A stretch of 64,000 nucleotides of DNA from Terriglobia bacterium (GTDB lineage: Bacteria > Acidobacteriota > Terriglobia > UBA7540): NCBI GenBank assembly GCA_020072655.1, contig JAIQGH010000030.1:31833-95832 (forward strand), written 5' to 3'. The notes under the pieces are model-generated. The model was given only the letters and a program-made list of their open reading frames with translations. It had not been told where the DNA came from and did not search any database. A program made the position numbers and the translations under genes. This document shows positions 114 through 62,739 of the stretch, in pieces (the first letter of the stretch is position 1; each line of letters opens with the position of its first letter).

Positions 114-2927
114 ATGAGACCTCGAGGTTGCTTCCGACCGGTCGGTCGCGCGGGCGACCGTTTCCGGAGCGGCACGGGACTGTGGGCGCTCCTGCTTGGC
201 CTCCTATTCTTCATGGGCAGCATTCGGCCTGGACTGGCACAGGTCGCGCGCGCAGACGTGGTCGGCGTGGTCGTATCGCCATCCGGCGAGCGGCTGGCCG
301 GGGTCCAGGTGCGACTCGTCCGGGAGGGTTCGCAAGCGCTCATCTCCGCAACACCGACCGGCGTCAACGGCGGGTTCAGGTTCTTGGCGATTCCCCCCGG
401 CGTGTTCACCCTCGAGGCTACACGCCTGGGCTGGCGAGAGCTGCGCGAGGCGCACGTGGAGATCCGCTCGGGAAGCGCGCTCGACATCCGGATTATGTTG
501 TCGCCGCTTTCGGCGCCCTCTCGAGCCAGCGTGGCGGAGGTCCGCAATCGCGAGGTCGACTGGGGGACGATGTTTGAAGACTCTCGGCTGCGCCGTCTCC
601 CCAACTCCGGAAACCTCTGGTCGCTCGTCGAGAGTCAGGCGCCGACCACCGTCACCAACCGCATCGACGTGGGCGGCCTGGCGACCGGCGTCCCGGCGCT
701 TTTCGGCGCGCTTGGCGCCTCCTGGACGGAGAACCAGTATTCCCTCCACGGGTTCAACGTGACGGACCCTTACGTCCCCGGCCGACCCCTCATCGACCCC
801 GACCTGGACGCGGTCTCCGAACTCTTGGTAACAACAGGGGCGAAGCCCGCGCCGTTCGGGGCGAGTGGCGTGAACTTGACGCTCTCGACGCCACCGCCCG
901 GCGCCGCCTTTCACGGTTCCACCCGCTGGTTCTATTCCGACGGAAGCCTGCAGTCGCACTTCAGCGACGCCCGGCTCGCGCGGTTTCAATTCCCCGGCCC
1001 CGAGCGCTTCCGACATTTCGCGGACGGCAATGTTCAGTTGGGAGGCAAACTTCCGATCCCCTCCGCGTCGTGGCCCTTCTTTGCGTCGCTCTCCACACAG
1101 CAACTCTCAAAAACACTCGGCGGCTTCAATGCGCCGATGGACGTTCACGTGTATCGCGCGCTCACCGAGGTCACGCCGCTTTCGCGGGGCCGGAGCCGAT
1201 TGGACCTGCTCTATTCCGGGCAACACATTTTCAACTCCCATGAAGGAGCTGACCCGCGAATCGCCGCCGACTCGACGACCCGCGGGAACGACAACTACCA
1301 CCAAGTCCAAGCACGCGGCGAGCATCTCCTGAATCCCAATGCTTGGCTTGCCGCGGGCTTTGGCGTTGTACACGCCATTGTCTCCTCGGGCTTCGAGCCG
1401 GGGCTTGCCGAGCCGAGCGCGCTCGATTTGCCGCAGATGACTCGCACGGGAGCGGCGCCGCTTTCAACCGCCGGGACCCGCACCCGCTATGAAGCGCATG
1501 CCTTGATTCAAGCCGTGCGCGATGGCCCCGTCGGCAGCCACAACTTGACGCTGGGCGGGGAATGGGAGCGGAACTTCATTGCCAATCGCTGGGACGCGCT
1601 GGGCGGCCTGGAGCGGACGGAAGTCGCTGGCGTCGGTTCGGAAGTGACCCTCTGGAACACGCCCAGCGCGGCTCGCAGCCACACCCAGAACGTCGCCATC
1701 TTCGCGCACGACGCTTGGCGGCCGACGAGTTGGCTGAGCCTACCGCTCGGGCTGCGACTGGATAGTTCATCGGGGCGGGCAGCAGGTGTGGCCTCCGGAA
1801 TCCGCTGGACGACGCTTGAGCCGCGCGCGGGCCTCGTCCTCCCGCTCCGCCGCCGCGGGCCGACGCTGCGGGCGAGCTGGGCACGCTACGGGCACCTCCT
1901 CCAAGGCCGTTATCTCGATTTCGGAAACCCCGCGGCGCTCGGCGGCCAGGTGTTCAGGTGGGATGACGCGAACGCCGACCTCGCCTTCGAGGCGGGAGAG
2001 ATCTCGACGCTGCTTCGCCGTTTCGGCGGCCCTTACTCGGCCATTGATCCTGGGCTCGCGCGGCCGTTTACCGATGAGGTCAGCGTCGGCCTGGAACAGG
2101 AACTTGGCTCGGGCTTCCGCGCCGGCGTGCGCTTCTTCCGTCGCGATACGCACCGCCGCATCGCGGTCTCCAACGTCGGCGTTCCTTTTGCCGATTACAC
2201 GCCGGTGAATTATCTCGACCCCGGAAATGACGGAATCCCCGGAACGGCGGATGACCAAGTGCTCGCCCTCTACAACCGCAATCCCGGCTCGCTCGGGCAG
2301 GATTTCTTGCTGCTCACCAATCCGCCCGGCTTGCACGGAAGCTTCAAGGGCTTCGAGGTCCGTCTGGCGAAACCGTTGCGCCGCGTCTGGGAATTCGAGG
2401 CCAGCTTTACGGCGATGCGCACGCTGGCCGCAACCAGTCCGGGCAACTCGGTGTTCGAGAATGACCCGGGATTCGTCGGCGCACTGGGAACTGACCCGAA
2501 TACTTTTGTCTTGGATGCCAGCCGCACGTATTTCGATCGGGCGTTCATCGGCAAGGCGAGCGGCTATTACTTCGCGCCCAAGGGATTCCAGGTGGGATGC
2601 GTGGCCAAGTATTACGACGGCTTGCCGTTCGGCCGCTTGCTTTTCGTGGACGGATTCAACCAGGGGCCGTTCTTTGTGCGCGCCACGCCGCGCGCCCACC
2701 CCGGCGGGTTTCAAACCCAATTCAACCTCACGCTCGATACTCGCGTGGCCCGTGAGTTCCGTCTCCGCCGGGGCGTTCTCTCCGGCTACTTCGATGTCTT
2801 CAACGTACTGAACCTCGACAAGAACACGCTCGAGGCAGACTTGACCGGACCATCGTTCGCCTCGCGCGTTCCGCTCGCCATCCAGGCGCCGCGCGCCGCC
2901 CGGCTGGGGGTGGAGTGGAGGTTCTAG
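114..2927 (+). CDS. TonB-dependent receptor with carboxypeptidase-regulatory-like N-domain
   Basis: Outer-membrane receptor, probably for a large sugar, peptide or metal complex; the substrate cannot be read from the sequence. Residues 1-43 form a signal peptide (basic n-region, core LWALLLGLLFFMG, cleavage near GLAQ). Residues about 45-125 are a carboxypeptidase-regulatory-like beta-sandwich (GVVVSPSGERLAGVQV, then GGFRFLAIPPGVFTLEA). Plug and beta-barrel follow, with a YFDVFNVLN stretch near the end and a terminal aromatic residue (VEWRF) as in barrel proteins. This N-domain plus receptor layout is typical of the large Oar-like receptors of Acidobacteriota; 937 aa is on the short side for them. 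The ATG at 114 has AAGG directly before it; ATG 213 is possible but would destroy the signal peptide. No ExbB/TonB partner lies beside it. Confidence 0.85.
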   Translation: MRPRGCFRPVGRAGDRFRSGTGLWALLLGLLFFMGSIRPGLAQVARADVVGVVVSPSGERLAGVQVRLVREGSQALISATPTGVNGGFRFLAIPPGVFTLEATRLGWRELREAHVEIRSGSALDIRIMLSPLSAPSRASVAEVRNREVDWGTMFEDSRLRRLPNSGNLWSLVESQAPTTVTNRIDVGGLATGVPALFGALGASWTENQYSLHGFNVTDPYVPGRPLIDPDLDAVSELLVTTGAKPAPFGASGVNLTLSTPPPGAAFHGSTRWFYSDGSLQSHFSDARLARFQFPGPERFRHFADGNVQLGGKLPIPSASWPFFASLSTQQLSKTLGGFNAPMDVHVYRALTEVTPLSRGRSRLDLLYSGQHIFNSHEGADPRIAADSTTRGNDNYHQVQARGEHLLNPNAWLAAGFGVVHAIVSSGFEPGLAEPSALDLPQMTRTGAAPLSTAGTRTRYEAHALIQAVRDGPVGSHNLTLGGEWERNFIANRWDALGGLERTEVAGVGSEVTLWNTPSAARSHTQNVAIFAHDAWRPTSWLSLPLGLRLDSSSGRAAGVASGIRWTTLEPRAGLVLPLRRRGPTLRASWARYGHLLQGRYLDFGNPAALGGQVFRWDDANADLAFEAGEISTLLRRFGGPYSAIDPGLARPFTDEVSVGLEQELGSGFRAGVRFFRRDTHRRIAVSNVGVPFADYTPVNYLDPGNDGIPGTADDQVLALYNRNPGSLGQDFLLLTNPPGLHGSFKGFEVRLAKPLRRVWEFEASFTAMRTLAATSPGNSVFENDPGFVGALGTDPNTFVLDASRTYFDRAFIGKASGYYFAPKGFQVGCVAKYYDGLPFGRLLFVDGFNQGPFFVRATPRAHPGGFQTQFNLTLDTRVAREFRLRRGVLSGYFDVFNVLNLDKNTLEADLTGPSFASRVPLAIQAPRAARLGVEWRF

Positions 2928-32478: not shown

Positions 32479-33072
32479 ATGTTACCCGCAATGTGGATCG
32501 TGGGAACGATCGTGGTGCTCGGGGTGCTCCTTGTCCTCGGCCTGATCGTCGTGGGAATCATCCTGTACCTCGTGGGCATCTACAACAGCCTGGTCACACT
32601 CAAGAACGATATCGACCGCTCGTTTGCCAATATCGACGTCCTGCTCAAGCAGCGGCACGACGAGCTGCCCAAGTTGATTGACACCTGCAAGGGTTACATG
32701 CAATACGAGCAGAAAACGCTGCTGGCCGTCACCGAGGCGCGCAGCGCCTACGCTCGCGCCACTACGCCCGCCGAGAAAGCCCAGGCCGACAACATGATCA
32801 CGGGCGCGCTCAAGACCCTCTTTGCCGTCGCCGAGAATTATCCTGAGCTCAAGGCCAACACGAATTTCATGCAGCTCCAGGGACGGATCAGCGAGCTGGA
32901 AACAAAGATCGCGGGGCAGCGCACGTCTTACAACGAAGACGTGAACGTTTACAACATCCGCATCGCGCAGATTCCGGCGAATTTCGTGGCGGGAATGATG
33001 GGCCTGCGCCCCCATGCCCTGTTCGAAGTCGCCACCACCGACCGCGAAGATGTGCAGGTGAAGTTCGCATAA
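32479..33072 (+). CDS. lemA: LemA family protein, copy 2
   Basis: Same build as copy 1: N-terminal membrane helix (VGTIVVLGVLLVLGLIVVGIILYLV), then NDIDRSFANIDVLLKQRHDELPKLID, GYMQYEQKTLLAVTEARSAY and YNEDVNVYNIRIAQIP. RBS AAAGGAG. Differences from copy 1 are mainly in the TM helix and the C-terminal 20 residues, where the two may bind different partners. It is the last gene of the GIDE-LemA-LemA set and converges on the lysine-rich microgenes. Confidence 0.93.
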   Translation: MLPAMWIVGTIVVLGVLLVLGLIVVGIILYLVGIYNSLVTLKNDIDRSFANIDVLLKQRHDELPKLIDTCKGYMQYEQKTLLAVTEARSAYARATTPAEKAQADNMITGALKTLFAVAENYPELKANTNFMQLQGRISELETKIAGQRTSYNEDVNVYNIRIAQIPANFVAGMMGLRPHALFEVATTDREDVQVKFA

Positions 33073-33153: not shown

Positions 33154-33193
33154 GGGCCCGTGGCGCCGACTAAGTGCATCGGCGCAGGGGCCC
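33154..33193 (-). terminator. Hairpin terminator of microgene B
   Basis: On the minus strand, 33 nt after the stop of the microgene at 33226-33261. Two-tier stem: GCGCCGA/TCGGCGC (33063-offset arms at 33163-33169 and 33179-33185) within GGGCCC/GGGCCC (33154-33159, 33188-33193). The T-tract after it is weak (TTTCGGTTT), so termination may be partial. Confidence 0.55.
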
Positions 33194-33225: not shown

Positions 33226-33261
33226 TTATCTCTTCTTCTTCGGCTTAGTTTTGCACGCCAT
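33226..33261 (-). CDS. 11-aa basic microprotein MACKTKPKKKR (copy B)
   Basis: Minute gene: ATG, ten codons, TAA, encoding MACKTKPKKKR. RBS GGAG lies 7 nt before the ATG. A TTGACA (-35-like) is at 33349-33344 with a poor -10 (AGAAAT, 18-bp spacer), and a hairpin follows. It has exactly the length of the peptides at 33451-33486 and 61098-61133 and the same Lys-rich, K-K-K-(K/R) end, but a different middle (Cys3, Thr5, Pro7). No known family is recognised. Candidates are a nucleic-acid-binding peptide, a ribosome-associated peptide, or a leader peptide on a small RNA. Confidence 0.5.
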   Translation of the reverse strand: MACKTKPKKKR

Positions 33262-33384
33262 CCGTGTTCTCCTTCGAGCGAAATTGCGCAGGCCTGCTGT
33301 CGATTGCTCGACGGAGTGCATTTCTGGTTCGGAAGCGGTCTGCTGTCAAGCGCCGCGCGAGCGGGCTGGGCGTTGTCGAATCAC

Positions 33385-33416
33385 AAAAAAGGGCCCCGAT
33401 GGAGTGCATCGGGGCC
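33385..33416 (-). terminator. Rho-independent terminator of microgene A
   Basis: Perfect 10-bp stem GGCCCCGATG/CATCGGGGCC (33392-33401 and 33407-33416), 5-nt loop, followed on the minus strand by T6 (33390-33385). It stands 34 nt after the stop of the microgene at 33451-33486. Confidence 0.85.
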
Positions 33417-33450
33417 TGGGGAAAGGAGGAAACCTGGGAATGGAATAAAG

Positions 33451-33486
33451 CTACTTCTTCTTCTTGGCCTTTTTCTTCGCTGCCAT
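33451..33486 (-). CDS. 11-aa lysine-rich microprotein MAAKKKAKKKK (copy A)
   Basis: ATG GCA GCG, three Lys codons, GCC, four Lys codons, TAG. RBS GGAGGG is 10 nt before the ATG. A promoter (TTGACA, 17 bp, TACATA) is 79 nt upstream and a perfect stem plus T6 terminator is downstream, so this is a complete transcription unit of about 170 nt. The peptide differs from the 61.1-kb copy only at the last residue (K/R), while three other differences are silent or in the stop codon, which points to selection on the peptide. Function unknown; a poly-basic peptide of this kind could bind RNA, DNA or the ribosome. Confidence 0.65.
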   Translation of the reverse strand: MAAKKKAKKKK

Positions 33487-33564
33487 AACTGAATTACCCT
33501 CCGTTGAAGGATTGAGAATCGCGCGATGGCCAAGATATTGAGGGCCGGCGCGTCCGTGGCCCTA

Positions 33565-33593
33565 TATGTAGTAGTATTCCTGCGAATTGTCAA
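33565..33593 (-). promoter_or_regulatory. Promoter of microgene A
   Basis: Minus strand: perfect -35 TTGACA (33593-33588), 17-bp spacer, -10-like TACATA (33570-33565). Predicted start about 33558, giving an RNA of roughly 170 nt to the terminator at 33385. Confidence 0.6.
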
Positions 33594-33790
33594 GACAAAT
33601 TTCACGTTGACCGCCAGAACTGGGGGGCCGAGCCCTCCCGTGTTTTGGAAAGGTGGCGGGCGGGTAGGGAGGTTGGGTTGGTTGCTTGTCCGAGACCACA
33701 TGAGACGTGGGATGTTGGCGGTTTGACCGCTGGCGGCGAGATTTGCTAACGTAGGGTTTTGTATTCCGAGGGTTGAAGAGCACTGTAGGA

Positions 33791-35728
33791 ATGCCGAGCG
33801 TTCAGATTACCTTCCCCGACGGGACCTCTCGAGAGTTTCCGCAGGGCGTCACCGCGCTGGAAGTTGCCAAGTCGATTGGGCCGCGGCTGGCCGCCGAGGC
33901 GCTGGCCGCCAAGGTGGACGGCCGCCTGGTCGATCTCACCCACCGGATCGAGTCGGACGCGCCCATCCAGTTCATCACGCCCGCCGCTCCGGAAGGGCTG
34001 GAGATCTACCGGCACTCGGCGGCGCATTTGCTCGCCGCGGCGGTGACCGACCTTTTCCCGGACGCCCATCCCGGCGTCGGCCCCCCCACCGACACCGGCT
34101 TCTTCTACGACTTCTACCGCGAGAAGCCGTTCACCGAGGACGATCTCGCCAAGATCGAGAGCAAGATGCGCGAGATCGTCAAGGCCGACTTGCCCAACGA
34201 GCGCCTCTACTTCCCGAAGGAGGAAGGCAAGAAGCTCTTTGATCAGATGGGCGAATTCCTGAAGTGCGAACTGGTCGAGGAGAAAGCGGAGCCGGTCTTC
34301 TCCGCCTACCGCACGGGCAAGTTTCTGGATTTCTGCCGCGGGCCACACATCCCTTCCACCGGGCGCATCAAGGCCTTCAAGCTGCTGAGCGTCGCCGGCG
34401 CCTACTGGAAAGGCGACGAGCATTCCTACCCGCTGCAGCGCATCTACGGAACGGCGTTCTTTACTGCCCGAGAACTCGACGAGTTCCTCGCCAAAATCGA
34501 GGAAGCCAAGAAGCGCGACCATCGGCGGTTGGGCAAGGAGCTGGAACTTTTCAGCATCCAGGACGACGCTGGCCCCGGGCTGATCTTCTGGCACCCCAAG
34601 GGCGGCATCGTGCGCAAGGTCATCGAGGACTGGCTGCGCGACGAATTGCTCAAGCGCGGCTACGAGCTGGTCTTTACCCCCCACGTCATGCGCCTGCACT
34701 TGTGGGAAACCAGCGGCCATACCAACTTCTATCGCGAGAACATGTTCGGCGCGATGGACGTTGAAAACGACCGCTACCAGCTCAAGCCCATGAACTGCCC
34801 CGGCCACATCCTGATATACAAATCGCGCCGGCGCAGCTACCGCGAATTGCCCGTGCGCATGGCCGAGCTCGGCACGGTCTATCGCTACGAGCGCTCCGGG
34901 GTGCTCCACGGCTTGATGCGCGTGCGCGGCTTCACCCAGGACGACGCGCACATCTTCTGTGCGCCCGAGCAACTCGAAGACGAGGTCCAGGCCTGCGTCG
35001 AGTTCGCCTTTGCGGTGCTCAGCGCCTTTGGCTTTGATCGGTATGAAGTGGAACTCTCCACCCGCGATCCCGCCCATCCGGAGCATTACGCCGGGACCAT
35101 TGAGGAGTGGGAGCGGGCGGAAGTGGCGCTCCGCTCGACCCTCGACCGCATGAAAGTCCCGTTCAAGCCCATGCCGGGCGAAGCCGTGTTCTACGGGCCG
35201 AAGATTGATGTGAAGCTGGTGGACGCCATCGGCCGTCCCTGGCAGCTCACCACGGTGCAGTTCGACTTCAACCTGCCCAGCCGCTTCGAGCTGGAATACG
35301 TGGGGGCGGACGGCCGCCCCCACACGCCCGTCATGGTGCATCGCGCGCTGTTGGGCTCGATCGAGCGATTCTTCGGCGTCTTGATCGAACATTACACCGG
35401 AGCGTTTCCCGCATGGCTCTCGCCGGTGCAGGCCCTGGTTTTGCCCATCAGCGAGAAGCAAGCGGCCTATGCCCGTGAGGTTGTCGAGAAACTCCGCGGT
35501 GCGGGCATCCGCACCGAGCTCGACGACCGCAATGAGAAGCTCAACGCTCGCATCCGGGACGCGCAATTGCAGAAGGTCCCGTTCATGCTTGTCGTCGGCG
35601 ACCGCGAAGCCCAGGCCCAAGGAGTGGCGGTGCGCCGGCGCGACACGGGCGACGCGGGTTTCCGGCCTGTTGCCGAGTTCATCCCCTGGCTGCGACAGCT
35701 TATCGACACGCGGGCCGTGAAATGGTAA
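33791..35728 (+). CDS. thrS: Threonyl-tRNA synthetase
   Basis: Charges tRNA-Thr. Domains in order: TGS (about 1-62), editing domain with HSAAHLLAAAV and the His/Cys pair in FCRGPHIPSTG, class II catalytic core (about 240-530) with motif 2 GTVYRYERSGVLHGLMRVRGFTQDDAH and motif 3 region, zinc-binding Cys in MNCPGH, and the C-terminal anticodon domain (QALVLPISEKQAAYAREV). Length 645 aa is normal. ATG 33791 is taken over a TTG at 33773. First gene of the thrS-infC-rpmI-rplT-pheST cluster, a classical bacterial order. No T-box leader was seen. Confidence 0.96.
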   Translation: MPSVQITFPDGTSREFPQGVTALEVAKSIGPRLAAEALAAKVDGRLVDLTHRIESDAPIQFITPAAPEGLEIYRHSAAHLLAAAVTDLFPDAHPGVGPPTDTGFFYDFYREKPFTEDDLAKIESKMREIVKADLPNERLYFPKEEGKKLFDQMGEFLKCELVEEKAEPVFSAYRTGKFLDFCRGPHIPSTGRIKAFKLLSVAGAYWKGDEHSYPLQRIYGTAFFTARELDEFLAKIEEAKKRDHRRLGKELELFSIQDDAGPGLIFWHPKGGIVRKVIEDWLRDELLKRGYELVFTPHVMRLHLWETSGHTNFYRENMFGAMDVENDRYQLKPMNCPGHILIYKSRRRSYRELPVRMAELGTVYRYERSGVLHGLMRVRGFTQDDAHIFCAPEQLEDEVQACVEFAFAVLSAFGFDRYEVELSTRDPAHPEHYAGTIEEWERAEVALRSTLDRMKVPFKPMPGEAVFYGPKIDVKLVDAIGRPWQLTTVQFDFNLPSRFELEYVGADGRPHTPVMVHRALLGSIERFFGVLIEHYTGAFPAWLSPVQALVLPISEKQAAYAREVVEKLRGAGIRTELDDRNEKLNARIRDAQLQKVPFMLVVGDREAQAQGVAVRRRDTGDAGFRPVAEFIPWLRQLIDTRAVKW

Positions 35729-36694: not shown

Positions 36695-36956
36695 GCGCGG
36701 CTCGGGGGGCGCGCTGCAGCGGACCGGGGATTAGAGACCAGGCGCATTTGACGAATCCCGAGTCTCCGATCTCAGGAGTCCGATGGACTCCATCGGAGTC
36801 CTCAAATCGGACCCGAGTGGCGAACCCCGATCCCACAGGCGCAGGAAGGCCAATGGCTGGGTGCCTTCGCCCCGATGTTCTTCGTCGGGGCCTTCGCCCC
36901 GATGTTTTTCGTCGGGGCCTTTGCTGCCCTGAAACCTTCATGAAAGGAGCAAACCC
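36695..36956 (+). repeat. Long rpmI-rplT spacer with three hairpins, two in tandem
   Basis: This spacer is unusually long for rpmI-rplT (262 bp). It has a CCGATGG/CCATCGG hairpin with 3-nt loop at about 36779-36795. It then has two direct copies of a 27-bp unit (36864-36890 and 36891-36917), each forming a GCCCCGA/TCGGGGC stem with a 9-nt loop. The units differ at one base (TTCTTCG/TTTTTCG). No T-run follows, so they are not standard terminators; they may act as mRNA-stabilising or attenuating elements between the two genes. Confidence 0.65.
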
Positions 36957-59765: not shown

Positions 59766-60773
59766 TCAGTCAGCGGGCGCGTAGTATCCCCGGCGGGCCT
59801 GGACTTTGTAGTCGTGGCCGCGCACCTTGACGCGGATCTTGCGGAAGGACCCGTCGTGGCGGGTATTCTTCGGCGTATAGCCGAGCAGGTACTGAGTGCG
59901 CAGTTCGTCGGCGATGTCCTGGAAGGCCTGAGCGGTGTCCTTGGCGCGGCTGACCTCGATCACCCGCCCCCCCGTCTCCTCCGAATACTTCTTCAAGATG
60001 GAGTCGCCCTGGAACCCCATCATGTGCCCCCAATAGAAGGAGCGGTCGGTGATGGCGATAGTGTAGATGATGACGTCGGATTTCTGCGCGGCCTCGAGCG
60101 CGTCATCGAGCTTGATCCGGCTTCCCTGGTCCTCACCGTCCGTGAGCATGATGAGGACCTTGCGGCCGACCTCGCCCTTCAACAAATCCCGTGAGGCCAG
60201 GTAGACGGCGTCGTGGAGGTGCGTTCCCCCCACACTCGTCCCCGGGAAGGGTCCGGGCATGACGCCTTGCCCGCCACCGTTGATCTGGGTCGAGTCGATG
60301 GCGCGCGCGAGCAGGCGGTGGTCGCTGGTGAAGTCTTGCAGCAGCTCCACCTCCAGATCGAAGTGCAGAATGAAGGTCAGATCCTTCGGCCGCACCACCT
60401 GGTTGATGAAAGTTTTCGCCTCCTCCTGCTCGACGCCGAGCACGCGCTGCTGGCTCGGACTGGTATCCACAAGAATGCCCATCGTCAGCGGCGTATCCGT
60501 CTCCCGCGAGAAATAACGGATGTCCTGGGGAGCGCCGTCTTCGGTGAGCTCGAAGTCGTCGCGGGTCAGGTCCGGCACCGGACGCTTCTTATCCCGCACC
60601 ACCGCGTACACGTTGACCACGCTCGTCGTCACGCGCAGCGTCTGGTCAGAGGCGGGAGGATTCTCCTGGCTCGACCAGGCGGCGGGCAGGCCCCACGCGA
60701 GACAAGACGCCAACGCCAGCCAGAACATGGCCATCCCTCGCGCCTTCCCCGGCGATTCAACACCCTGTGCCAT
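59766..60773 (-). CDS. Secreted VWFA-related protein (acidobacterial type), copy 2
   Basis: Same architecture as copy 1: signal peptide (MFWLALASCLAWGLPAAWSSQ), beta domain (VTTSVVNVYAVVRDKKRPVPDLTRDDFELTEDG), VWA with DTSPS, GGTHLHD and MLTDGEDQGS, and the C-terminal QYLLGYTPKNTRHDGSFRKIRVKVRG followed by RRGYYAP. It is convergent in orientation with copy 1 and the two flank the accessory pocket of 57.3-59.7 kb. Confidence 0.9.
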   Translation of the reverse strand: MAQGVESPGKARGMAMFWLALASCLAWGLPAAWSSQENPPASDQTLRVTTSVVNVYAVVRDKKRPVPDLTRDDFELTEDGAPQDIRYFSRETDTPLTMGILVDTSPSQQRVLGVEQEEAKTFINQVVRPKDLTFILHFDLEVELLQDFTSDHRLLARAIDSTQINGGGQGVMPGPFPGTSVGGTHLHDAVYLASRDLLKGEVGRKVLIMLTDGEDQGSRIKLDDALEAAQKSDVIIYTIAITDRSFYWGHMMGFQGDSILKKYSEETGGRVIEVSRAKDTAQAFQDIADELRTQYLLGYTPKNTRHDGSFRKIRVKVRGHDYKVQARRGYYAPAD

Positions 60774-61001: not shown

Positions 61002-61030
61002 TTGACAAGCATGCGGCCAATCCTTATACA
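61002..61030 (+). promoter_or_regulatory. Promoter of microgene C
   Basis: Perfect TTGACA at 61002-61007, 17-bp spacer, TATACA at 61025-61030. Expected RNA start about 61037; the transcript to the T-run at 61193 would be about 155 nt. Confidence 0.75.
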
Positions 61031-61097
61031 TGGAGACTGAATACGCGCTCCGCCAGCCTGGCTGGCGTGAAATTCAAAGAAGCGAGAGGAGAATAGA

Positions 61098-61133
61098 ATG
61101 GCAGCGAAGAAGAAAGCCAAGAAGAAGAGATAA
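61098..61133 (+). CDS. 11-aa lysine-rich microprotein MAAKKKAKKKR (copy C)
   Basis: Complete unit: strong promoter, RBS AGGAGA 5-6 nt before ATG, 11 sense codons, TAA, and a terminator 28 nt later. Compared with copy A (33451-33486, other strand, 28 kb away) codons 5 and 6 exchange AAA and AAG silently, codon 11 is AGA for AAG, and the stop is TAA for TAG. Flanks, promoter spacer and terminator are different, so the conserved part is the coding sequence. No function can be assigned. Confidence 0.7.
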   Translation: MAAKKKAKKKR

Positions 61134-61160: not shown

Positions 61161-61193
61161 CGGGGATGCAGCGATGCATCCCCGAAGTTTTTT
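61161..61193 (+). terminator. Rho-independent terminator of microgene C
   Basis: Perfect 9-bp stem CGGGGATGC/GCATCCCCG (61161-61169, 61176-61184), loop AGCGAT, then T6 at 61188-61193. Confidence 0.88.
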
Positions 61194-61306: not shown

Positions 61307-62674
61307 TCATTCCGCATCGGGGTCGGGCGCGGGAGGCAGGCCGCGCGTCGTCCGCTCAACTTGGCCTAACACAGGGATCTCTTCGGCGGTCGTCGCCTTC
61401 AATTCGCGAAATCTGCGCACGCTCGGCAGCACTTGGTGCTCGAGCGATCCGACCACGCGGTTCCAGGTATCAACGGCCTTGTCGATCGCCGCGCGCAGAG
61501 CATCCAGGTGCTCCCACATCGTGCTGACCCGCTTGTAGAGCTGCTTCCCAAGCTCGCTGATCGCCTGCGCGTTCTTGGCGATCTCCTCTTGCCGCCAACC
61601 GTGGTAGACCGCCAGCAGGAGCGCGATCAGAGTATTCGGGGTGGCGATGACCACCCGCTGGGCCATCCCGTCCTCGATCAGCGTGGGATCCCGCTCGACC
61701 GCCGCCCCGAGGAAAGGATCCCCCGGCAGGAAGAGGACCACGAACTCCGGCGTCTTGGGGAGCCGGTCCCAATACGCTTTCGACCCCAGTTGCTCCATGT
61801 GCCGCCGCACTTGACTGGCATGGCGGATGAGATGCTGTTGCCTTTGCTCTTCGGTGGAAGACTCGATGGCATCCAGGTAGGCGTCCAGGGCGACCTTCGA
61901 GTCCACAATCACCGCGCGGTCGTCCGGGAGGTGAACGATCATGTCGGGGCGCACCAGGCGCTCTTCGGCAGCCACCGAGGGCTGCTCGAAGAAATCGCAA
62001 CGGTCAACCATGCCCGCGAGTTCCGCGAGGCGGCGCAGCGTAATCTCGCCCCAGCGGCCACGGACCTGGGGTTTTCTCAGGGCGGTAACCAGATTTGCCG
62101 TTTCACGCTGGAGCTGGGACTGCGTTTCACCAAGCTGCGACAAGTGCTGTTTGAGTGACCCGTAGGCTTCCTGCCGGCTGAGCTCGATCTGCCGGATCTC
62201 GCTTTCATATTTTTCCACCGCTTCCCGGAGCGGTTTGACGAGGTTCGCAATCGCGTCCTGGCGGCGTTCGAGGTCGCCGTCGGATTCCGCGCGGAGCTTG
62301 TCGAAGCTCTGCGCAGCAAGCTGGAGAAACGCCTGGCTCTGATCGCCCAGGACATCTCGCGAAAGCGCCTTGAACACATCGCTGAGCTTGGATTCCGCCT
62401 CGCGGAGCAAGGCGCGCTGGTCTTCCAGGTTCTTGCGCTCGGCTTCGAGGGAAGCTTCGGAGGCGGCCTTGGCTTTTTGCTCATTCTCGAGCCTCTGCCG
62501 GAGCCCCGAGACTTCCCCCTCAAGCTTTTGCTGCTGCTCTCGCAAGCTGGTGGCCGTCACTTCAGCGGCGATCGCGCGGTTATCGCATGTCCGCATCCTC
62601 CCGCTCAAGATCAACCAGGCGCCCAGAGCGCCCAGCAACAGGCCTACGACCAGAATCGCAGCGTAAGTAATCAT
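61307..62674 (-). CDS. rmuC: DNA recombination protein RmuC
   Basis: Limits inversions at short inverted repeats; nuclease-like. One N-terminal membrane helix (ITYAAILVVGLLLGALGAWLILSG), long coiled coil (about 30-190), then the RmuC core: RGRWGEITLRRLAELAGM, DMIVHLPDDRAVIVDSKVALDAYLDAIES, FVVLFLPGDPFLGAAVERDPTL, VIATPNTLIALLLAVYHGWRQEEIA. Start 62674 has GGAAAGGTGCGGA upstream; an in-frame earlier start at 62725 would pass through a hairpin and is rejected. Confidence 0.94.
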   Translation of the reverse strand: MITYAAILVVGLLLGALGAWLILSGRMRTCDNRAIAAEVTATSLREQQQKLEGEVSGLRQRLENEQKAKAASEASLEAERKNLEDQRALLREAESKLSDVFKALSRDVLGDQSQAFLQLAAQSFDKLRAESDGDLERRQDAIANLVKPLREAVEKYESEIRQIELSRQEAYGSLKQHLSQLGETQSQLQRETANLVTALRKPQVRGRWGEITLRRLAELAGMVDRCDFFEQPSVAAEERLVRPDMIVHLPDDRAVIVDSKVALDAYLDAIESSTEEQRQQHLIRHASQVRRHMEQLGSKAYWDRLPKTPEFVVLFLPGDPFLGAAVERDPTLIEDGMAQRVVIATPNTLIALLLAVYHGWRQEEIAKNAQAISELGKQLYKRVSTMWEHLDALRAAIDKAVDTWNRVVGSLEHQVLPSVRRFRELKATTAEEIPVLGQVERTTRGLPPAPDPDAE

Positions 62675-62696
62675 TCCGCACCTTTCCTGGTTGGCA

Positions 62697-62718
62697 GGGG
62701 CACGCCTGGGCGTGCCCC
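62697..62718. repeat. Perfect hairpin GGGGCACGC/GCGTGCCCC upstream of rmuC
   Basis: 9-bp stem, 4-nt loop, between the helicase-nuclease end and rmuC. No T-run on the minus strand side, so a terminator role is uncertain. Confidence 0.5.
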
Positions 62719-62739
62719 GACGCACTCGTTTACCTCAAG

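Follow-up and report, generated by a model that had tools for sequence, protein, structure and literature searches.

It is fairly probable that two 11-codon genes in the 64,000-nt stretch of Terriglobia bacterium DNA analysed here (the window), ORF1 and a copy at position 61098, are conserved micro-genes with their own promoter, ribosome-binding site (RBS) and terminator, and that they are likely translated into polycations predicted to bind polyanions by charge. At these loci orthology, gene neighbourhood and promoter are conserved, and purifying selection acts on the composition of the peptide and not on its sequence or length. The selected composition consists of at least seven positive charges, a Lys/Ala make-up, and arginine only as the last residue; the conserved property of the gene is small, disordered-looking positive charge. 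By the RNA around the micro-ORF the genes divide into type A, represented by ORF1, and type B, represented by 61098.

The interval between lemA (32479-33072) and thrS (33773-35728) contains ORF1 (MAAKKKAKKKK, 33451..33486) and a second ORF of the same length, ORF2 (MACKTKPKKKR, 33226..33261), both on the minus strand. The original prediction had described these two as a pair of lysine-rich genes, and their coordinates, ends and RBSs agree with the sequence, as do the TTGACA/17/TACATA promoter, the hairpin and the T6 ascribed to ORF1; both ORFs of the pair are confirmed as described, but the third copy at 61098, which is the better conserved, had been overlooked. The ORF1 unit (all on the minus strand) begins with a -35 element, TTGACA (33588..33593), that is perfect in all 23 type A orthologues, followed at a distance of 17 nt by a -10-like TACATA (33565..33570) that reads TA[CG]ATA at the same spacing in 17 of 17 aligned members. 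A Shine-Dalgarno (SD) sequence, GGAGGG (33497..33502), precedes the ORF, and an intrinsic terminator (33385..33416) composed of a hairpin at 33416-33392 and a T6 tract at 33390-33385 closes the unit. The resulting RNA is predicted to be about 174 nt long, slightly more than the 160-170 nt first claimed, and its fold stability is unremarkable (z -1.20; 27 of 200 shuffles as stable). The terminator was called by the automatic scan; the promoter was not called by the same generic sigma-70 scan, because this demands T as the last base of the -10 element, and it is accepted here because it is conserved in the orthologues. A sigma-70-like promoter of this kind would drive transcription and, to judge by its form, strong expression. 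Three ORFs of 8-25 codons in the window follow an SD and have Lys and Arg as at least half of their residues (ORF1, ORF2 and 61098); when the window was simulated 40 times under a first-order Markov model, such ORFs numbered 0.1 on average and 2 at most.

The copy at 61098 emerged as a within-window match during the DNA search of relatives. This type B micro-gene (MAAKKKAKKKR, 61098..61133, plus strand; 35 orthologous ORFs) sits between a TIGR03436-type VWA gene (59766-60773, minus strand) and rmuC (61307-62725, minus strand). Its signals, all on the plus strand, comprise a -35 TTGACA (61002..61007) that is perfect in 34 of 35 orthologues, the remaining one being cut by a contig end, a -10-like TATACA (61025..61030) at a 17-nt spacing, a leader hairpin CGCCAG..CTGGCG (61051..61067) seen in sequence and alignment, an SD core GGAG within GAGAGGAG (61088..61091), and a terminator with a GCGA tetraloop (GNRA) and T6 (61161..61193), likewise seen in sequence and alignment. 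The type B leader also keeps CGCGCTCCGCCAG almost unchanged, its CTCC differing in one of 20 aligned members, and this segment could pair with the SD.

Peptides of 11 residues are too short for profile libraries (minimum 20 residues) and for protein database search, so homology between the loci rests on DNA. An exact ten-codon pattern has matches in 23 of 101 genomes, all 23 of them within the 39 genomes of the same family, and the reversed-pattern control has none across the 101. Covariance models were built for type A (R2, from 17 sequences) and type B (R1, from 20) and run over 250 genomes of the class; the underlying alignments exclude duplicates, one copy truncated by the end of its contig (L015) and four ORFs with neither 3' signature. 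Of the 39 family genomes, R1 finds the type B gene in 35 (E<=2.9e-13) and R2 the type A gene, confirmed by its ORF, in 23; weak matches (E above 1e-7) in G023, G004 and G020 may mark further type A genes and stand outside the count of 23. With R1, the weak match in G033 and G037 is the type A locus, and G011 and G032 give no match; type B was thus undetected in four and type A in 16 of the 39 family genomes, some of which are incomplete drafts. Each of the 58 orthologous loci holds exactly one such micro-ORF. The neighbourhood is kept as well: a VWA gene or rmuC lies close to 34 of 35 type B genes, and thrS or lemA close to 19 of 23 type A genes, the other four being elsewhere. In G003, two matches to Acido-Lenti-1 (RF01687, above cut-off) were observed not far from the type A gene (L243:772-818, minus strand, and 963-1010, plus strand).

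The expression signals are shared across both types. All orthologous loci but one carry an unaltered TTGACA (57 of 58), and that one is cut by a contig end; of the 37 aligned members, 36 have the -10-like element 17 nt further on and one has it at 18 nt. In type B the leader stem and terminator show pairing in 97.6% of alignment cells, and 14 cells are changed on both sides versus 5.2 in shuffles; the number of pairs with two-sided changes, three, is not above shuffles (92/500). The type A structure taken as a whole is not clearly above shuffles. ORF1 is borne out as a separately promoted and terminated basic micro-gene, conserved beyond its contig in the acidobacterial genomes that were searched.

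ORF2 fared otherwise, and its standing as an equal partner of ORF1 could not be upheld: among 100 other genomes it has no counterpart with up to two mismatches allowed, and among 40 relatives no full-length DNA match, so that as a conserved gene, present in one of 101 genomes, it is rejected. The layout of TTGACA, SD, 11 codons and hairpin repeats the scheme of the other units, with a weak -10 and terminator. On the minus strand, an SD AAGGAG (33269..33274) and a large hairpin (33154..33193) are present as predicted; as a terminator this hairpin is weak, for a clean T-run is absent, the hairpin (33193-33154) being followed by TTTCGGTTT, and the terminator scan makes no call. A TTGACA (33344..33349, minus strand) with a poor -10, CAGAAA at 33326-33321, is also present and had been missing from the prediction. 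The fold stability of the ORF2 RNA is modest (z -2.10, equalled by 4 of 200 shuffles). The simplest view of ORF2 is that of a derived extra copy of recent origin, and it may be decaying. A recurrent hairpin, CGATGCACTnnrTCGG, occurs in the window at 33166-33181 and 33396-33411 (minus strand), at 36781-36796 (plus strand) and elsewhere, with nine matches at no more than two mismatches versus 1.6 expected, and near-identical copies of 20-23 nt are found at six other places of this genome, which suggests a recurrent terminator or repeat element.

Selection on the micro-ORFs acts on the peptide. Counted against the commonest base of each column, changes at codon positions 1, 2 and 3 number 8, 6 and 49 in type A (17 aligned) and 5, 4 and 29 in type B (20 aligned), so that most of the variation falls on third positions. 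In both alignments the micro-ORF varies less than either flank, with 0.64 (type A) and 0.44 (type B) extra alleles per column versus 1.10-2.13 in the flanks. Peptide length ranges in type B from 9 residues (MPKKKKKKR) through 11-13 to 25 (MAAKKKAKPKAKAKATPKAKAKKKR) and in type A from 11 to 15, and all length changes among the 58 orthologues are in frame. The third-position excess together with the in-frame length changes indicates purifying selection on the codons of a small protein, and the codons of ORF1 are more constrained than its UTRs, the reverse of the freely changing codons within a kept RNA structure that would have spoken against a gene. From this codon-level selection, the micro-ORF would be translated into an 11-residue polycation. 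Every one of the 58 peptides carries 7-13 Lys and Arg residues, with one acidic residue in total; given lengths of 9-25 residues, it is therefore charge, composition and end that are fixed, and not sequence and length. All 49 Arg codons (mostly AGA/AGG) in the 58 ORFs are the last codon, perhaps because of a need at termination or at the C-terminus.

The chance that the ORFs are a non-coding purine tract or arose by accident is negligible. Lysine codons consist of purines only and the tract is of low complexity, but the 58 ORFs contain 409 Lys codons (294 AAG, 115 AAA) and a single Glu codon, so that A and G exchange freely at position 3 and not at position 1, which is not a purine-tract effect. 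Arginine confined to the last codon, in-frame length changes, and Pro, Ser and Thr codons that interrupt the tract with charge retained also stand against this reading, as does the absence of reversed-pattern matches in 101 genomes; a chance ORF or purine tract is accordingly rejected by the simulations, the reversed-pattern control and the codon data.

The type A and type B peptides of one genome resemble each other more closely than those of different genomes do. Their summed edit distance across 21 genomes is 67 versus a permutation mean of 89.9 (0/10000), and with one genome per genus it is 30 versus 46.0 (10 genomes; 3/10000), the relatedness of genera being uncorrected. In G009 both peptides carry an otherwise unseen KKKGKKKK, and the ORF DNA is nearly identical.

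Type A transcripts possess a further feature in the 3' UTR, where the anti-SD sequence CCTCCTTTC (33421..33429, minus strand, in ORF1) is identical to a nine-base stretch in the 16S rRNA tail of G010, a member of the family; the 16S rRNA gene is absent from this draft genome and was found in one of seven other genomes. Among the 3' UTRs, 18 of the 23 from type A and none of the 35 from type B contain the core motif CTCCTTT, but 17 of the 18 motif-bearing type A members were chosen by a filter that included the motif, so its frequency in these first 17 is not independent. Anti-SD motifs are also carried by CcsR RNAs. At the CcaF1-CcsR locus (CIN1) of Rhodobacter sphaeroides, CcsR RNAs are described as sharing a transcript with a small RNA-binding protein (PMC10253847), and type A likewise unites an anti-SD-like 3' region with a small basic ORF; CcaF1, however, is a 71-aa DUF1127 protein accompanied by four separate CcsR RNAs, and no sequence relation to the micro-genes was found. 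Pfam and NCBIfam yielded no family for four relatives of greater length (23-26 aa). The MmgR/alpha-r8 and AbcR RNAs (RF00519, suhB-like) provide a second comparison, in which an anti-SD motif is described within a short terminated RNA (PMC7143759, PMC12559287). Type A shares both traits and gives weak matches to the model, but its scores lie below the family cut-off wherever it is matched (27.3-32.1 bits versus a gathering cut-off of 41, in 5 of 14 stretches), and its RNA carries a conserved ORF. For the other nine of the 14 stretches no RF00519 match is among those listed at the thresholds used, and Rfam at gathering score finds no RNA family in the window; assignment to this known RNA family is rejected, as all matches fall under the 41-bit cut-off.

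These likenesses raise the alternative that the ORF1-type transcript is mainly an anti-SD regulatory RNA of the MmgR/AbcR kind in which the ORF is a passenger or one half of a dual function. The motif in 18 of 23 orthologues, the identity of CCTCCTTTC to the 16S tail and the sub-threshold RF00519 matches in 5 of 14 stretches favour such a role, and the SD/anti-SD pairing is predicted in many single folds of type A RNA. It is nevertheless quite improbable as the main function, for five of the 23 type A orthologues lack the motif and retain the peptide, and all 35 type B orthologues keep the peptide without it; moreover, the first 17 members were picked by the filter, the pairing shows no two-sided changes in the alignment, and the type A structure does not clearly exceed shuffles. 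The earlier suggestion that the ORF is a regulatory leader of a small RNA is thus set aside as the main role, because the peptide outlasts the anti-SD motif and sits in a second, unrelated RNA. By prediction, the type A 3' UTR would pair with its own SD sequence and damp translation; the anti-SD part would then be an added control, perhaps self-repression, and not the reason for the gene. An extra RNA role of the ORF1 transcript may exist.

Among readings that keep a translated peptide, an attenuation leader for lysine could be imagined from seven lysine codons followed by a terminator. It is extremely unlikely: ORF1 points at convergent lemA and 61098 at convergent rmuC, these neighbours recur in relatives, and the terminator is a strong, conserved end of the unit. 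A lysine attenuator is therefore rejected on gene order, a co-directional amino-acid gene downstream being absent in the window. That the peptide is exported, as an antimicrobial or surface-binding agent, is very doubtful; it is short and cationic, but a signal sequence is impossible in 9-12 residues of such make-up, the peptide is not amphipathic, and an exporter or immunity gene is never a constant neighbour at the loci examined.

Action at the ribosome is unlikely though less so; the peptide would then be either a minute free component bound to ribosomes or a lysine-rich nascent chain that acts in cis, its own translation being the function. Extreme charge, a very short ORF, lysine runs and the keeping of composition and not sequence agree with it, and one group of the f10 genes adjoins an rsmE-like 16S rRNA methyltransferase. 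The neighbours at most loci are non-ribosomal, however, a length range of 9-25 residues is hard to reconcile with a defined ribosomal site, and behind the units in the window there is no co-directional gene for a stall to control. Conservation of composition alone does weigh against the free polycation that we favour, as a spacer-like or cis-acting nascent chain could show it too.

For the favoured polycation, electrostatic binding of polyanions is the simplest mechanism, by analogy with the Lys/Ala/Pro tails of AlgP/PhaF-type proteins, which are described as binding DNA (PMC9239181). The micropeptides share with these H1-like tails an abundance of Lys, Ala and Pro with some Ser/Thr, and the keeping of charge rather than sequence; like H1-like polycations they are Lys/Ala/Pro-rich and non-acidic, with one acidic residue in 58 peptides. 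The two differ in that the AlgP/PhaF tail is a long repeat tail on a folded domain (in AlgP, 195 aa following a 124-aa N-terminal domain; PMC9239181), whereas the micro-genes have 9-25 codons with nothing attached, and such a tail on a folded domain is not present in ORFs of 9-25 aa. The micropeptide would work like an excised histone-H1/AlgP-type tail, and would bind DNA, RNA, the ribosome or polyphosphate electrostatically; the originally predicted binding to nucleic acid or ribosome is plausible. No description of such a micro-gene was found in titles and abstract starts of the open-licence PMC literature, and the string AAKKKAKKK is absent from its searchable texts; this is no proof of novelty, because only open-licence PMC papers were covered.

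Similar ORFs extend beyond the family. Of 39 further loci fetched from the class for model matches, 37 carry a very short K-rich ORF (10-26 aa) preceded by an SD, and two gave no ORF under the filter; at these 39 loci 11 upstream neighbours group with VWA, and the downstream neighbours include ten UvrD-like helicases and four RmuC. Across the phylum, 15 of 199 genomes match R1 at E<=0.01 (class members included), and five of eight loci fetched from other classes hold such an ORF, the other three having none under the filter. For 80 of at least 119 stretches from named genomes, the ORF that carries the pattern is at most 14 aa in 14, 15-25 aa in 25, 26-50 aa in five, 51-120 aa in 14 and more than 120 aa in 18, and four ORFs ran off the locus. 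A single-contig genome from a different class (G363) carries two K/A-rich micro-ORFs in tandem that differ from each other (L297:1190 and 1515, plus strand).

In other phyla, including Beta- and Alphaproteobacteria, Nitrospirae and others, ORFs of 10-29 codons like MAAKKKAKKKTAKKK have an SD and terminator-like ends. Their neighbours differ from those of the acidobacterial micro-genes, and any common descent is conjectural. Five betaproteobacterial loci (L071, L088, L090, L098, L116) hold 15-20-codon ORFs of the form MAAKKKAKKKxAKKK... behind a homologous upstream gene, of which one tested start matches lysA (TIGR01048); these are possibly an independent micro-gene family. Two alphaproteobacterial loci (L107, L132) hold K/A ORFs of 16-17 codons beside a shared gene that is FtsY-like by eye and whose first 70 residues match no NCBIfam family. 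As a tentative generalization, which may well prove too broad, free-standing, strongly promoted genes of 9-25 codons in Acidobacteriota and, in parallel, in other phyla could specify a genetically encoded polyamine or mini-histone, selected for nothing but at least seven positive charges and an Arg end, with paralogues that evolve in concert.

If translated, these would be stand-alone genes of 9-13 codons kept across a bacterial class, and among the smallest conserved genes in bacteria. They lie far under the size accepted by the gene finders and protein databases used, and are invisible to annotation. That one peptide is specified by two unrelated transcripts implies that the function of the peptide is separable from that of the RNA. 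Translation would further mean that a gene can be preserved by natural selection for nothing but net charge, and that the micro-genes offer a minimal natural model of how bacterial polycations act on polyphosphate, ribosomes or nucleic acids.
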